Below, piece by piece: positions 35,638 through 42,686 of a DNA stretch of 61,820 nucleotides. Both the position numbers and the translations under genes were made by a program. The stretch is from Bacillota bacterium. Its GTDB lineage: Bacteria > Bacillota > Limnochordia > DTU087. Below the pieces are notes generated by a model that worked only from the letters and a program-made list of their open reading frames with translations, was not told the origin of the DNA and ran no database searches. The stretch is from NCBI GenBank assembly GCA_012798695.1, contig JAAZMR010000116.1, positions 1 to 61,820 on the forward strand, in the 5' to 3' direction. How positions within the stretch are numbered: position 1 is the first letter of the stretch; each line of letters opens with the position of its first letter.

Positions 35638-38600
35638 CTAATGAGCAAATAGCTGAACAAAGACTCCGGGTTTGACCGAGAGAAACCCGGGGTGGCCGTG
35701 GTTGATGGGCCAGGTATAGCCTGTGATCCAATTCAGCCCCGGTACTATCTGATAGCTCAATCCCAAGCTGTAGCCTAATTCTGCCTTATCTATCTGCTGC
35801 CAGCCGCCTATCTGTACGAAGCCAGCCAACCTGGGGCTTAATCGCCTAGAAAGGCGGATAATCCCCTGTTGGGTAATCAGGGTACCGGTTAGGTTATTGT
35901 TCACTGCTTTTACTGTGGCTCGGGCCCAGGCTTCCCATAGATTGTTTAGCTCTAGCACCGTTTCACTGATTACCTCCCAGCCCTCTAGGTTGCCTTCAAC
36001 CAAACTAGTGCCAACCACAAGCTTTGCCTCAGAGCCAGCCCTGTACGGCAGCTGCTGCACATCCAGCTGCAGTTGATCTACCCATTGCCCCGCCCGCAGA
36101 GCCCCTAATCTTTGGCTTCTTGCCCAACCGAGTTCTAGGAGAATCCCCCCATCTAGCTTACCTTCCAGCTCTATGCTGCCTCGCCACTGCGGTTTATCCC
36201 AACCTCCCCCGCTGTTGGTCACCCATTCCCCGGACCCTCGCACAGACCACTTTTCCAGAAAGGCATAGCGAGCGGCCAGGGAGAGCGTTTCTGACCTAGA
36301 GGTGGTGTAGCTCTGCTCCCGAGAGCCCGCAACCCTAATGGTCCCATCTGATGCCCGCTTATTGCTGTGGGCAACACTCACCTCCAAGTTTTCGGTGACA
36401 TCACTCTCTATCCCCACAGTCCATTCCTCGAAACTGCTTGGGGTCCGGTTGCCTGCCAACACAGGCGATGATCCCTGGCGTCCATTGACGTAAGGCCGAA
36501 GCTTGCCCTTTCCATACCTCGCACTAAAGCCCGCCACTGCCTTGATGGGCTGCCCCGCCTTGTTCATCACCTCACCGGTCAAGTTTTGCGTTAGAGCAAG
36601 CTGAGCACCCCACTCCAGATTCGGCAGTTCACCCTCGACTTCCAGCAACCCATAGTGGCTTTTGTTCTCATCTGCAGAATAGTGAGCCACTTGTTGACCA
36701 TATCCCAAGCTCCAGTGAGGCAGCCCTACCGCCTGGTAATTGAGCCTTTGCTCCCACCTTTGAATAGAATCACCCTGTTTGGACTCCATCTCATTTCCTT
36801 GCCGAGAGAGCTCTTCCTTTCTGGCCATAAACGATGCCATCCAACCGCCCACCAAGTCCACCTCTGCAGCAATGGCACGTGTCTGGGACTGTTTCCCTAC
36901 CACGGCCAGAGGCCCTACCCCTTGTCTAGTTCTGGGTGACATCCCAGTCAATTGCTCTCTTATCTTGAATGCCAGTTTGTCCAAAGGCTGATCAGCCCTG
37001 GCCGTTCTGATATCCTCGGATGTAATTCCCCAAGAGCCGCTATGCATTACACCCTCATGCCCCCAGCCGCCACCTAACCGCATGCCGGGGTGAATCTCCA
37101 GGGCCACTACTAACTTGCCGGCCGAACGGCTGCTCAATGCAGATGCATCGGTTGTTTGACAATCTGGCCGCAGAGCGGCTGTAACATCGAACCAGGGGCT
37201 GGCCTTGTCTCCCACAGCAGTCTGTAGGCTGCCATGCAGCCGCCACCTGTCATTTGTGATCTGGCCTCGCATGCCCATTAGCCGAATCTGGCCATTTACC
37301 CCAGTTTCCAGATAGTTGACCACCACCCCCCACCCAGGATGTGTCATGCTGACGGCAGCCTCTTTCCAGCCCAGGCCTTTGGTATCGGTTCCCCCAACAT
37401 AGGTTATCAAGATGTATTGCCTTTCCCCTCGGGAGTTATGGGCGCCAACTGCCCGCCCTAAGGTAAGAGCTCCCTGGGCATAATCTACTCGAAAGAGCAC
37501 TGACGGCTCTTCCCGCCAAACACCTCTTATGGGATCCCAGCTGACAATCTCTGCCTTCACCGAACCATGCAAGGGGAGGGGTTTGGGCAAGGCAAAAGGC
37601 CCGGATGTATTGTCTGCCGGATAAAGGCTGAACACGGGCCACATACGTGGTATCCCATAGAAACCCCGTACCACCAAAGGACCAAAGCGAGTTGCCCCCT
37701 GCAATCCTGCTATGGGAAACTTTCCAACAGATAACTGCTGCTGGGGTGAATCGTGCTCCCAGCTCCCACCTTCCACGGCCCATTCGCTTCCTTCCAGGCG
37801 GAATCTGAGTCTATGGGAATGCAACCAATCACCGGCCAGCATTAATGGTTCTGCAACGGGTACCAAAGGATTCCGGTCAATGTGTCGCTCTAGTTGCATA
37901 TCCTGAAAGGGTATACTGGGCTCGGCCACGGCAGGATGAGGCTCTATCTCCACCTCGATTGATACATCAGAGCCTATCGGCACGACAAAGTGGCTGTCCA
38001 CCAGGTTGCGGGGAGAGGTAGCGATAAACGGCCCTGCCGTCACTTCTACCATCTTAGATACCGCCTCTGTCTCAACTGTTCCCCAAGCTCCGTGGCCGAT
38101 AGCTCGAGCCCGAATATGGCTGTCCCGCCCAGCAGCATCCAACCCTACTAAAAACCAGAGCTCGGCTTGCGCAGATGCACCTTCACCTAAAGGTCCTACT
38201 TCCCAGGCTATCCTACCACCTGAATCGCTGCCGGCCTGTCTTGTATAGATACGGCCAGTCTCTCCTTGGCTCCCCACATAGGCAAAACCGGCAGGCACTG
38301 TCATCTCCCCGATAACCTCCTCGAGATCCCGCGTACCAGAGTTGGTGATCTGCACAGCAGCCATCAACAGATCCCCCATAGATACCGTTCTACTCGATAG
38401 CTGTAAATCGATATCCAAAGCTCGGTTAGGAAAAAGCTGCAAATCGAGTTGGCATTCTTCATGCCCATCTAGATAAAAGATGTCGGTAGTGGCTGCAACA
38501 TATCCCGGCATACTAGCTTCCAGGTAATACTCACCAGCAGGCAATAATGTCAAGCGGTAAGTCCCATCCCCTCCCGTGGGGCGATTGGCTGTGTGTCTGC

Positions 38601-39501
38601 GTTCCCGGGTATACAACGCAACTTGGGCTCCCACCAGCCCCTCACCGGTATCAGCTCCAGTCACTCGGCCACAGAGGGTCCCCTGTCCACTCCGGGGGCT
38701 ATTGGCAACCTCTATGATTCCAGCTGCGATCCGTTCTTCCCGGGATAAGACTATGACCTCATAGTAGTAGATACCGGGGAGAATGATTTCTCCTGCCCCT
38801 GTCAGGCCATCCCAAAACACTTCATACCACTGACCACCCAGCTGATTTGTGCGCATCTTCCTCACCAGCCCGCCCTCGGCATCAGTAATAGTCACTTCCA
38901 CCTGCTGCAGACCAATGCCCGGAAGCCAATAACCAATGGTTAATACTTCCGTACCATCTGGCCAAAAAGGGGTAGGGTATACCCAAGACTGCTTGGGATC
39001 GAGATCAGGGCTGAGCGTAAAGCAAAGCTCAGTGGCATACTGTTGGGGTAGAGGCGGATCTGCCCAGCTTGGGCAAAAACGGTAATCAATCCGCACGATT
39101 TCACCTGCGTCCTCGGTAGGGATGCTTGCATCAAGCACCGTCTGGGGCGTATTGGCCTGAAGCGGTGTCCACCGAGGTTGGTTGCCATCATTTACCGCCC
39201 ATGCTAGACGGCTGGCCGGGATCTGTATTTGAGGCTGTTCGATGTTGACTAGATCGCCCTTGGCCTCAATAGTTAAGGCCCAAGGGTCTTGGGGTGCTAC
39301 CACCAGCATTTGGGTGCCCCCGGTGATTACCACTGGCGGCCGTGCTGGATCAACTAGGCCGAAATGAATGAGGGGGGTTCCGTTATAGATGCCGATGAAA
39401 CTATCAGCTTTGACTACGGGAACAAGGATCAGGCTAGCTCCCCCGATGAGCAGAATGCATAAGCCTGCACATACCAGTCTACCTCTGGGCAATCGTGTCA
39501 C
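35638..39501 (-). CDS. Giant secreted protein with FlgD-Ig, regulatory-like, DUF11-like and beta-barrel-like parts
   Basis: A 1287-residue exported protein. In order: signal peptide (about 1-32), unknown beta domain, FlgD-like Ig domain (about 205-270, QQVEVTITDAEGGLVRKM), carboxypeptidase-regulatory-like domain (about 275-345, GTLCGRVTGADTGEGLVGA), a DUF11-like domain with ITNSGTRDLEEV (about 355-480), then about 700 residues of alternating amphipathic strands with aromatic girdle residues, ending in GVFVQLFAH. That last part reads as an outer-membrane beta-barrel. The start overlaps the chaperone-like gene by 23 bases. It may be an usher-like or anchoring pore for the neighbouring subunit (inference). 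Confidence 0.65.
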   Translation of the reverse strand: MTRLPRGRLVCAGLCILLIGGASLILVPVVKADSFIGIYNGTPLIHFGLVDPARPPVVITGGTQMLVVAPQDPWALTIEAKGDLVNIEQPQIQIPASRLAWAVNDGNQPRWTPLQANTPQTVLDASIPTEDAGEIVRIDYRFCPSWADPPLPQQYATELCFTLSPDLDPKQSWVYPTPFWPDGTEVLTIGYWLPGIGLQQVEVTITDAEGGLVRKMRTNQLGGQWYEVFWDGLTGAGEIILPGIYYYEVIVLSREERIAAGIIEVANSPRSGQGTLCGRVTGADTGEGLVGAQVALYTRERRHTANRPTGGDGTYRLTLLPAGEYYLEASMPGYVAATTDIFYLDGHEECQLDLQLFPNRALDIDLQLSSRTVSMGDLLMAAVQITNSGTRDLEEVIGEMTVPAGFAYVGSQGETGRIYTRQAGSDSGGRIAWEVGPLGEGASAQAELWFLVGLDAAGRDSHIRARAIGHGAWGTVETEAVSKMVEVTAGPFIATSPRNLVDSHFVVPIGSDVSIEVEIEPHPAVAEPSIPFQDMQLERHIDRNPLVPVAEPLMLAGDWLHSHRLRFRLEGSEWAVEGGSWEHDSPQQQLSVGKFPIAGLQGATRFGPLVVRGFYGIPRMWPVFSLYPADNTSGPFALPKPLPLHGSVKAEIVSWDPIRGVWREEPSVLFRVDYAQGALTLGRAVGAHNSRGERQYILITYVGGTDTKGLGWKEAAVSMTHPGWGVVVNYLETGVNGQIRLMGMRGQITNDRWRLHGSLQTAVGDKASPWFDVTAALRPDCQTTDASALSSRSAGKLVVALEIHPGMRLGGGWGHEGVMHSGSWGITSEDIRTARADQPLDKLAFKIREQLTGMSPRTRQGVGPLAVVGKQSQTRAIAAEVDLVGGWMASFMARKEELSRQGNEMESKQGDSIQRWEQRLNYQAVGLPHWSLGYGQQVAHYSADENKSHYGLLEVEGELPNLEWGAQLALTQNLTGEVMNKAGQPIKAVAGFSARYGKGKLRPYVNGRQGSSPVLAGNRTPSSFEEWTVGIESDVTENLEVSVAHSNKRASDGTIRVAGSREQSYTTSRSETLSLAARYAFLEKWSVRGSGEWVTNSGGGWDKPQWRGSIELEGKLDGGILLELGWARSQRLGALRAGQWVDQLQLDVQQLPYRAGSEAKLVVGTSLVEGNLEGWEVISETVLELNNLWEAWARATVKAVNNNLTGTLITQQGIIRLSRRLSPRLAGFVQIGGWQQIDKAELGYSLGLSYQIVPGLNWITGYTWPINHGHPGFLSVKPGVFVQLFAH

Positions 39502-40357
39502 CAGCCATTACATCGATGGTGCGCTCCGTACTGGCCAATTCGTAAGGTTGATTCACCTGGAATGCCCATTGCCCAGCTTCGATGGGTTCTCCCCCGGCAG
39601 AGAGGTGAGCATTGACCCGATATGTACCTACAGGCAATTTCTCTGGATGCCACCAAAGGGCTAGCTGCCGGCTGCAGCCCGGCAAGACTGTCATGGGCTG
39701 TACGGGCAAGCGGGTACCAATATCGCCCCCTACATGGGCAATCTCTATGTATCCGGAAAAACTGGCATGTACTTCACCTTGGTTCATAATAAGGGGGAAA
39801 ACGCCGATAGGCTCACCAGGATTGGCTTGGTCGATATCTAGGGTAGTCACTGCCAGATCCGAGGGTTTGCTACCGACTACCTGCAGCAAAGTAAGGACTG
39901 CCAGCCTGGACACAGCTACTGTGCCTACCGAGCCTTTTGGTGGCCGGATTTCTACGAAAATTACTGGGTAGAACCCACCGCGAATGTCACTGAGATCTCC
40001 TATGGTGGCAGTGATAGTACTCAATTCACCCGGTTCGAGCAGCAAATGAGTCTGATCGAGCCCCAGATGCCGGGCCCCCCAAGATCTTTCTGCCGGTGAA
40101 TCGAAGTATATAGGTGAGCCATTCCACCGGTGTTCGGCCCTCCCTACATAGACATCTATCTCTACCGGTGAGTTGGTGGCGTTTTTCACCCGTACCGGAG
40201 ATAGCTGCTCCCCAGGCTTTACTGTCGCCACTAACCGTGCAGGACTGACCAACACACCTCGATTCCGGCTTTCACTGCTTTGAGCGATGCCGCCAAGCAA
40301 AACAGCCAGCATCACGGCCAATAGAAGTACGCACCTAGCTCTCTTAATTGTTTTCAT
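39479..40357 (-). CDS. Periplasmic chaperone-like protein, two Ig-type domains (PapD/DUF916-like)
   Basis: A 292-residue exported protein with signal peptide (CVLLLAVMLAVLLGGIAQS). Domain one (about 35-165) has the PapD/DUF916 pattern VSPARLVATVKPGEQLSPVRVKN-type opening strand, EIDVYV and the RGGFYPVIFVEIRP edge strand; domain two (about 180-285) has IMNQGEVHASFSGYIEI and PVGTYRVNAHLSA. These folds bind pilus subunits or surface WxL-type proteins. The ATG at 40357 is chosen, with GGAGGAG eight bases upstream. It is placed between the small subunit gene and the beta-barrel gene. Confidence 0.65.
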   Translation of the reverse strand: MKTIKRARCVLLLAVMLAVLLGGIAQSSESRNRGVLVSPARLVATVKPGEQLSPVRVKNATNSPVEIDVYVGRAEHRWNGSPIYFDSPAERSWGARHLGLDQTHLLLEPGELSTITATIGDLSDIRGGFYPVIFVEIRPPKGSVGTVAVSRLAVLTLLQVVGSKPSDLAVTTLDIDQANPGEPIGVFPLIMNQGEVHASFSGYIEIAHVGGDIGTRLPVQPMTVLPGCSRQLALWWHPEKLPVGTYRVNAHLSAGGEPIEAGQWAFQVNQPYELASTERTIDVMAGDTIAQR

Positions 40358-40478
40358 GACCATTACTCCTCCCCGAATTGCTCCTTTCTAAGTTGGTCTT
40401 ACCTGATACCTTTCCAGTGGCTGCAGCCGCATACCGGCCCACTAATGGAAACACATACCGACACCTAGTCCTCTCTGC

Positions 40479-41018
40479 TCAGAAGTTGAGCCCGGCAGTA
40501 TATTGCACGACAATCCGGTAATCCAATCCAGGCGGCAGCGGCCGATCACCGTAATCAGCTACAAAGCGCAGGTAAAATTTGACCTCTTCGCCACTGTCGC
40601 CGGTAGGCGTTTGGTTTGCCACTATGGAACTTGGGGCCACCGACAATGGCTCCCATGGCCCAGAACTGCTTGCCGCAGACCATTCCATGGGATGAGTAAC
40701 TAAAGAACCATCAGGCACATAGGCTCCTAGTTCTTGGTCATATTCCTTCATTCTGCCATCCGGCAAATCGCAGCTGATCTCAATACCCCATAAGCTATTC
40801 GCTTTCACGCCGATGGTCAAGAGAGGAGACACCACCTCCTCTCCAGGCATGATGCCTCTGTCCAAATCTAGGAAACCATCGGGCCATGCCACTACTGCAA
40901 TGCTTTCGGCGATATTGACTGCCACCATCGTACTGTTGCTCTCCCTCTGAGCCTTGCCCGTTCCCCAGCCCAACACCATGCAGATCACTGCTATCCAAAG
41001 AATTGCCCGGTGCTGCAA
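40479..41018 (-). CDS. Small secreted beta-rich protein, candidate surface subunit
   Basis: A 179-residue exported protein. A signal peptide (about 1-23, ending GKAQ) is followed by a single beta-sandwich with VAVNIAESIAVVAWPDG, the PGEEVVSPLLTIGVKANSLWGIEISC block and the C-terminal strand DYRIVVQYTAGLNF. The pattern of a signal peptide, repeated short strands and a PG...KAN..W core is seen in pilin-like and WxL-like surface subunits; I cannot name the family. The TTG start has GGGGGTGG four bases upstream. It is the first gene of the three-gene locus. Confidence 0.7.
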   Translation of the reverse strand: MQHRAILWIAVICMVLGWGTGKAQRESNSTMVAVNIAESIAVVAWPDGFLDLDRGIMPGEEVVSPLLTIGVKANSLWGIEISCDLPDGRMKEYDQELGAYVPDGSLVTHPMEWSAASSSGPWEPLSVAPSSIVANQTPTGDSGEEVKFYLRFVADYGDRPLPPGLDYRIVVQYTAGLNF

Positions 41019-41161: not shown

Positions 41162-41195
41162 AAAAAACCCCCACTCCCGTTAGAAGGAGAAGGGG
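41162..41195 (-). terminator. Terminator of metK
   Basis: On the minus strand CCCCTTCTCC and GGGAGTGGGG pair over ten bases with one T-T mismatch and loop TTCTAAC, followed by TTTTTTG. It is about 110 bases past the metK stop; the stretch between shows no gene. Confidence 0.8.
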
Positions 41196-41303
41196 CTATG
41201 CATTGCTTTGAAGTGTTCCTAGGATAATCAAATCCCGGCAAGTCGCGACTTACACCGAACTGCTCACACCACCTGCGCTTCGTGCTGTAGTCATTTCATG
41301 TCA

Positions 41304-42506
41304 TTATCGCTTCACTTCCGATGCCGCTTCAGCCAGTATAGCATCAATTTTGTCGGTTTTCTCCCAGGGGAGATCCAAGTCATCTCTGCCGAAATGGCCA
41401 TAAGATGCTACCTGACGATAAAGAGGCCGACATAGATCCATATCCCGAATGATGGCTGCCGGGCGCAAGTCAAAGACGGCATTGACCCATGAGCTGATCA
41501 TCTCATCGGGATAGAGGCCGGTGCCAAAGGTGTCAACCATCAAAGATACCGGCCGGGCAACACCGATGGCATAAGCTAGCTGCACTTCACAGCGGCGCGC
41601 CAGCTTGGCGGCCACGATATTTTTGGCCACATAACGAGCAGCATAAGCAGCAGAGCGATCAACTTTGGTCGGATCCTTACCAGATAATGCTCCACCACCG
41701 TGACGGCCCATACCGCCATAAGTATCCACAATAATCTTGCGACCAGTCAAGCCCGAATCCCCAGCAGGGCCTCCCACCACGAACCGGCCGGTTGGATTAA
41801 TATAATACTTCGTTTCCTCATCGAGAAACTCTTGAGGTATTATCGCAGTCACTATCTCCCGCATGATATCTTCATACAGCTGTTCTTGTTGAATTTCAGG
41901 ATGGTGCTGGGCAGAGACTACAACAGTATCCACTCTCAAAGGACGCCCATCTTCATATTCTACTGTTACCTGGGTTTTACCATCTGGTCGCAGGTAAGGA
42001 ATAATCTCAGTTTTGCGGGCTTCGGCCAGACGCCTAGCTAATTTGTGAGCCAGAGAAATGGGTAAAGGCATCAGTTCTGCCGTCTCATCGGTAGCATAGC
42101 CAAACATTAGCCCCTGGTCTCCGGCACCCAATAGTGATGCATTATCAGTATCTCCTTGTCGCGCTTCCCAGGCGAGATTCACCCCCAAAGCAATATCGGG
42201 GCTCTGCTCATTGATGGCCGTCAACACCGCACAAGTGTCAGCATCAAATCCAAACTTGGCCCTCGTATAACCGATCTCCCGCACCGTATCCCGGACAATC
42301 TTCGGGATGTCTACATAGCAGTGAGTGCTGATCTCCCCCATGACCAATACTAGGCCTGTACTCACTGCGGTCTCACAAGCCACCCGAGCATCGCGATCCT
42401 GCTCCAATATGGCATCGAGTATAGCATCAGATACTTGGTCACAGACTTTGTCAGGATGTCCTTCAGTAACTGACTCTGATGTAAATAGGTAACGCTTACT
42501 CGACAT
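41304..42506 (-). CDS. metK: S-adenosylmethionine synthetase
   Basis: MetK makes SAM from methionine and ATP. The N-terminal [25 protein letters not shown]-type segment ([12 protein letters not shown]), [12 protein letters not shown], the phosphate loop [21 protein letters not shown] and [19 protein letters not shown] are all hallmark motifs. The ATG at 42506 is set by AAGGAGGTG six bases upstream; an earlier in-frame ATG lies inside the riboswitch terminator. The length of 400 residues is typical. Expression is probably under the SAM riboswitch directly upstream, giving feedback by its own product. Confidence 0.97.
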
Positions 42507-42525
42507 GCCGAGCACCTCCTTCTGC

Positions 42526-42556
42526 AATAAAAAACTCTTCCCATTGGGGGAAGAGG
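42526..42556 (-). terminator. Expression-platform terminator of the SAM riboswitch
   Basis: On the minus strand CTCTTCCC(CC) and GGGAAGAG form an eight-base-pair stem with loop CCAAT, followed by TTTTTTATT, between the aptamer and metK. SAM binding should favour this terminator. Confidence 0.85.
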
Positions 42557-42569
42557 CAACCGGCAAGTA

Positions 42570-42686
42570 GCCTACTCATCTCCCAGAATGGCACACATCC
42601 TGCAGGAATTGGCACCTCGCTCCGTATCTGGTCGCCGGTTGCCGGGCTTCATCGGGCCAGTCCCTCCACCTCTCTTGATGAGCAGC
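42570..42686 (-). promoter_or_regulatory. SAM-I (S-box) riboswitch upstream of metK
   Basis: On the minus strand the S-box core is clear: CTCATCAAGAGAGGTGGAGG, GGCCCGATGAAGCCCGGCAACC, GGTGCCAATTCC and the closing P1 strand GATGAG. P1 pairs CTCATC with GATGAG. It lies between a candidate promoter and the metK terminator, the classical layout for SAM-dependent attenuation. Confidence 0.92.

Follow-up and report, generated by a model that had tools for sequence, protein, structure and literature searches.

A three-gene locus in Limnochordia with a small subunit, a chaperone distantly related to WxLIP and a probable outer-membrane barrel protein

Organization and conservation of the locus

The window, i.e., the entire 61,820-nucleotide stretch of DNA that was analyzed from a Limnochordia genome, holds three open reading frames on the minus strand, here named sub, chap and big; all locus features given below lie on that strand. 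The first, sub (P0003, 40479..41018), encodes a small exported β-sandwich subunit of 179 aa, and its TTG start is preceded by GAGGAAGGGGG. The second, chap (P0002, 39479..40363), encodes a protein of 294 aa with two Ig-like domains, which we describe below as a chaperone related to WxLIP. The third, big (P0001, 35638..39501), encodes a large exported protein of 1287 aa, and its GTG start overlaps the end of chap. Sub and chap are separated by 115 nt, chap and big share 23 nt at their junction, and a hydrophobic, signal-peptide-like segment is found at the start of all three sequences, in agreement with an earlier note that described three exported reading frames in one order with short or overlapping junctions. 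An intrinsic terminator between metK and sub (41162..41196, z −3.9) splits the three genes from metK (41304-42566), and sub-chap-big is therefore probably a separate transcription unit. The metK gene, the upstream neighbor of the locus, is itself preceded by a SAM riboswitch (42573-42684).

The order sub-chap-big is kept in 28 genomes besides that of the window, within and beyond the class, which is far above chance and bears out the linkage in relatives that the note had proposed to look for; for this count, the third gene was scored as a large exported protein and the subunit domain was not required. In genomes with the conserved order, the locus is often placed directly after metK. Relatives of chap occur in 33 of the 73 genomes of our class sample (three single-contig, two sampled at about 69% GC; three closed Limnochordia genomes have been reported, PMC11456536), and relatives of sub in 38 of the 398 genomes of a phylum sample. 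A shorter third protein, of about 680–725 aa, is encoded in the f9 and a few other lineages; third proteins of this type give no overall hhalign match to the sub profile, and their N-termini look similar by eye. Some diderm (Omp85-positive) carriers have a sub-chap pair with no adjoining barrel gene, and the barrel would thus be dispensable in these genomes or encoded elsewhere.

Variants of the locus were also noted. Tandem, double-length chaperones of the chap family are found in L062 (8176-11330), L068 (3984-7162) and L069 (2116-8292), and also in L058, L065 and L066. The first three of these loci contain secretin genes (PF00263, E down to 4e-46), with other small exported proteins nearby, and this second arrangement may provide subunits of the same kind with a different outlet. 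In L061 (6762-12414), several small β-sandwich-like genes surround the chaperone gene, three of them preceding it, as in a multi-subunit version of the locus.

The chaperone and its subunit

For the sub and chap families, no hit above cut-off was obtained in Pfam or NCBIfam, and a profile search of PDB sequences returned only designed Ig proteins and one lectin. Among the members of the chap family, none reaches a Pfam cut-off, with a single weak match to WxLIP_PGBD, and the PapD-type chaperone family (PF00345) has no match in the 29 members. Profile–profile comparison with hhalign, by contrast with the Pfam WxLIP model, for which chap stays below cut-off, aligned the chap profile with a WxLIP profile over 228 columns, with both domains in order (probability 93.5, E 2e-7). 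The WxLIP profile was built from proteins of two other genomes of the sample, and unrelated control pairs scored <2%. By this comparison, chap is a distant homologue of WxLIP (DUF916-DUF3324) across both domains; of the two families with which the note had suggested comparing the protein, PapD and DUF916, the profile match is to DUF916 proteins, and PapD-type chaperones gave no hit. WxLIP_PGBD also scores over cut-off in our control genome Thermotoga maritima, a diderm outside the Bacillota, and the origin of the wider family may predate the WxL clusters described so far.

When compared with the proteins of E. coli K-12, chap aligns first with EcpB (hhalign probability 53-58%, 164-169 columns, colinear), whereas the classical PapD-type chaperones of this strain give no score. 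This link rests on two ECP sequences, and the support for a relation of chap to EcpB is moderate and weaker than for that to WxLIP. Since WxLIP itself detects neither EcpB nor FimC by the same method, the chap family appears to sit between WxLIP and EcpB in sequence.

The structure was predicted for L034, a close relative, whose sub and chap were joined into a single artificial chain by reading through the intervening stop codons; the alignment had 53 rows. The AlphaFold model has a mean pLDDT of 86.7 and a pTM of 0.73, with a disordered linker. Many multi-Ig proteins head the Foldseek list for this model, and good whole-chain matches include CfaA (PDB code 4y2o, TMt 0.55) and WxL-bound WxLIP (PDB code 9i25, TMt 0.49), such that the chaperone is predicted, from this relative, to have the two-Ig fold of pilus chaperones. 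The edge strand that ends domain 1 (residues ~151-163, VSRLAVLTLLQVV, 39875..39913) would correspond to the G1 strand that pilus chaperones donate. Arg153 in this strand is conserved in 25 of the 29 family members, and Arg232 in domain 2 is invariant (29/29). In the alternative and archaic pathways, the subunit C-terminus is held by the chaperone through residues from both of its domains (PMC4654587), and the conservation pattern is compatible with Arg232 and Arg153 as a candidate anchor of this kind. Most close relatives keep a third Ig-like domain in chap, which has been lost from the window protein while the C-terminal tail is retained; this looks like a clean internal deletion.

The extension at the N-terminus of sub (residues 30-39, TMVAVNIAES, 40902..40931) has alternating hydrophobic residues and is a candidate donor strand, and a stretch of the same type (TTVAVNIAESIAVV and variants) is seen across the small subunits of relatives. 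The extension is predicted to lie outside the folded domain: in the L034 model, residues 17-26 are not part of a strand, and the block of residues 11-20, which contains the first part of the candidate donor strand, has a pLDDT of ~55, unlike the rest of the subunit. At the other end of the protein, almost all small subunits terminate at the same aligned position, with a last residue that is mostly aromatic or aliphatic, as would be expected if the chaperone anchors the subunit C-terminus (compare PMC4654587). Comparison by hhalign of sub with the WxL domain profile (0.3%) and with pilins gave no significant similarity, and an assignment of sub as a WxL domain was dropped because its hhalign match was not significant.

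The large protein and the outer membrane

The N-terminal part of big contains a subunit-like domain (residues ~34-170, 38992..39402), supported by reciprocal HMMs, BLASTP and alignment. An HMM built from the N-terminal domains of big proteins only matches nearly all small subunits, and one built from small subunits only matches the corresponding place in big proteins; the two were built separately, and the reciprocal result is not circular. Direct BLASTP of sub against big from the window gives an E value of 5e-6. In the alignment, the hydrophobic N-terminal extension is present in sub and absent from the subunit-like domain of big, which begins directly after the signal peptide.

Known domains were found by the domain scan in big only among the three proteins, and there at residues 199-452. 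They comprise an FlgD-type Ig domain (residues 199-249, 38755..38907), which is below the curated cut-off in the window and above it in a relative, a CarboxypepD_reg domain (residues 276-355, 38437..38676, E 2.9e-15) and a DUF11 domain (residues 363-452, 38146..38415, E 6.2e-6). Neither an SLH domain nor a TonB-dependent receptor or plug family was matched in the scans of big. The middle region that follows (residues 483-869, 36895..38055) is conserved in the family, has no known domain and is modeled with low confidence. Between DUF11 and the C-terminal part, it carries the motif PADNTSGPF...GSV...RVDY..G..TLGRAV, and its role may be that of a plug or a linker.

The C-terminal part of big (residues 870-1287, 35641..36894) is a probable outer-membrane β-barrel of ~23 predicted strands, the last of which is GVFVQLFA. 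Compared with shuffled sequences, amphipathic alternation is clear in residues 871-1287 (z 3.2), weak in residues 481-870 (z 1.6) and absent from residues 1-480, and AlphaFold places a run of 23 antiparallel strands with short turns at residues 870-1286. Based on these two results, the barrel-like part spans about the last 415 residues rather than the 700 given in the note. A barrel-like last strand is also found in several relatives of big. The model of the fragment 483-1287 is poor (pLDDT 50), and the best PDB matches that Foldseek finds for it (TM <0.4) are outer-membrane barrels with few exceptions, TonB-dependent receptors dominating and LptD, SlpA and SprA being among the others. At this level, the matches support the class of fold and not a family, and the C-terminus of big is barrel-like, as proposed in the note, in a model of low confidence. 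No usher is present among the 50 matches listed. Comparison of the barrel with FimD or EcpC by hhalign gave no signal, which is uninformative since FimD against EcpC fails the same test.

The genome of the window encodes Omp85/BamA and LpxC on one contig, as expected for the diderm envelope suggested in the note. In the phylum sample, Omp85 is present in 35 of 38 sub carriers and in 67 of 360 non-carriers, a difference whose significance is inflated by genome relatedness, although the carriers come from many families. One of the three Omp85-negative carriers, G425, is fragmented, and Omp85 is present in its sister genomes. In the remaining two, which are well supported (G278 and the complete genome G092), sub and chap occur as a pair, a barrel gene is missing, and the chaperone ends in a C-terminal transmembrane helix, the architecture of WxLIP. 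This helix was found only in the two Omp85-negative relatives (L100 and L101), and is absent from the chap of the window and from the chaperones of other diderm carriers.

Proposed assembly model and comparison with known systems

We consider it fairly probable that sub-chap-big is a strand-complementation module of chaperone and subunit of the WxL/WxLIP kind, which has been fitted to the outer membrane by means of a barrel protein. The best reading of the latter is a dedicated anchor or outlet at the outer membrane, and the three-gene set as a whole appears to be an undescribed route, similar to pilus assembly, to surface structures in diderm relatives of Gram-positive bacteria. The linkage, the homologies, the co-occurrence with Omp85 and the altered chaperone of the Omp85-negative carriers are observed; strand donation, barrel closure and polymerization are the steps that we infer. 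In the proposed mechanism, chap would stabilize the incomplete β-sandwich of sub through temporary donation of the edge strand from domain 1, and would do the same for the subunit-like domain of big. The C-terminal barrel of big would be inserted in the outer membrane by BamA. The free N-terminal extension of sub would then replace the chap strand, either in the subunit-like domain of big or in another subunit. The domain in big, which would offer a groove and lacks a donor strand, would serve as acceptor, and the product would be a subunit complex or fiber attached to the outer membrane through big.

A possible, though less likely, alternative is secretion in the manner of ushers, with the barrel of big as a true pore through which the subunits polymerize to a surface fiber; the outer-membrane part would then be unrelated to ushers, or have diverged past recognition. 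The free N-terminal extension in sub, combined with a domain on big that could act solely as acceptor, fits such a process, as do the weak colinear similarity of chap to EcpB and the three small β-sandwich-like genes before the chaperone in L061. Ushers have a 24-strand barrel, and the number of about 23 strands predicted for big is close to this. However, neither the class genomes nor the 50 listed barrel matches yielded an usher, and the barrel has no hhalign signal with FimD or EcpC, even if this weighs little given the failure of FimD against EcpC. Most loci have a single subunit gene, and a domain N-terminal to an outer-membrane barrel is usually periplasmic, which means that a fiber anchored there would start on the wrong side of the membrane.

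Somewhat doubtful, but still to be weighed, is a fixed platform or tether in the envelope from which nothing is secreted. Here, sub and the subunit-like domain of big would reside on or near the peptidoglycan, like WxL domains, and big would link this layer to the outer membrane. The gene set is that of a WxL cluster (PMC10599100), a periplasmic stack of domains followed by a C-terminal barrel parallels SlpA/OmpM (PMC9388160, PMC10628300) with SlpA itself among the barrel matches, and the Omp85-negative pair with its membrane-anchored chaperone is WxLIP-like. Against this, sequence comparison detects no similarity between sub and WxL, no peptidoglycan-binding domain was recognized, and the conserved N-terminal extension is left unexplained.

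Two further explanations are improbable. If big were a common type of outer-membrane transporter to which Ig-like domains had been added, with sub and chap as its periplasmic partners, the dominance of TonB-dependent receptors in the Foldseek list would be accounted for, but not the occurrence of sub-chap pairs without a barrel, Omp85-negative genomes included, nor the failure of big to match a TonB-dependent receptor or plug family; moreover, the presence of a subunit domain in big connects the protein with sub and not with a solute. A surface adhesin whose C-terminus consists of more Ig-like or β-solenoid repeats instead of a membrane barrel would agree with the low AlphaFold confidence for the fragment and the plentiful Ig-like domains in the N-terminal half of big, but is hard to reconcile with ~23 amphipathically alternating strands joined by short turns, the barrel-like last strand in several relatives and the linkage to Omp85 genomes.

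Returning to the module of WxL/WxLIP kind fitted to the outer membrane, strand-complementation assembly would, if this is right, not fall into two separate groups, the Gram-negative pili and the Gram-positive WxL complexes; the two would be linked in sequence by a single protein family, in lineages of Bacillota that have kept an outer membrane. Loss of the barrel together with gain of a membrane anchor on the chaperone, or the reverse, would record how a surface system is rebuilt when the envelope changes. More speculatively, the locus could represent a third evolutionary class of strand-complementation systems, between WxL/WxLIP and chaperone-usher, in which a barrel with a built-in subunit domain secretes or nucleates the fiber, and whose distribution would connect the diderm–monoderm transition in Bacillota with how such systems arose or were lost. 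The locus also offers a candidate for surface assembly in a group for which the literature searched has no pilus-type chaperone pathway; publications on chaperone-usher systems in diderm Firmicutes include none that describes a sub-chap-big locus, and the published distribution of chaperone-usher systems does not include Bacillota (PMC4654587).

The note had suggested that the locus could belong to neither of the described classes. With regard to chaperone-usher systems this holds by homology, because Usher (PF00577, positive in the E. coli control) and PapD_N (PF00345) are each found in none of the 73 class genomes; the locus may nevertheless work like such a system. It does not hold as independence from both classes, since chap is homologous to WxLIP, as judged from the profiles, and the gene set mirrors the WxL cluster, although Pfam WxL has no match in the genome of the window. 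A WxL cluster consists of a small WxL protein, WxLIP and a large WxL protein, and AlphaFold2 predictions indicate that a WxLIP strand completes the WxL sandwich (PMC10599100). In these clusters of monoderm Bacillota, as here, a three-part set has one domain common to the small and the large protein, and the two-Ig chaperone-like protein (WxLIP, DUF916-DUF3324-TM) corresponds to chap in both domains. The differences are that the shared domain is at the C-terminus of the large WxL protein and at the N-terminus of big, that big ends in a probable outer-membrane barrel, and that the membrane helix of WxLIP is missing from the diderm chaperones.

The alternative and archaic chaperone-usher systems (CfaA, EcpB, CsuC) resemble the locus in the fold of the chaperone and, for EcpB, in a weak colinear profile similarity. 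They also share a subunit with an N-terminal extension and a fixed C-terminus, as in sub, the order subunit, chaperone, outer-membrane protein, and a barrel partner, which is probable in the case of big. In the chaperone-usher pathway, the G1 strand of the chaperone completes an Ig-like subunit that is itself incomplete, and the N-terminal extension of the following subunit later takes this place; sub would have a candidate for such an extension. Unlike these systems, sub-chap-big has no PapD_N or Usher homologue, and big adds the subunit-family, CarboxypepD_reg and DUF11 domains. In its overall architecture, big is similar to the SlpA/OmpM connectors of diderm Terrabacteria, which occur in the same groups and have a periplasmic N-terminal part followed by a C-terminal barrel (PMC9388160); in these connectors an SLH domain and a coiled coil precede the barrel, whereas the Pfam scan of big finds no SLH domain, and big also differs in being accompanied by a subunit and a chaperone.
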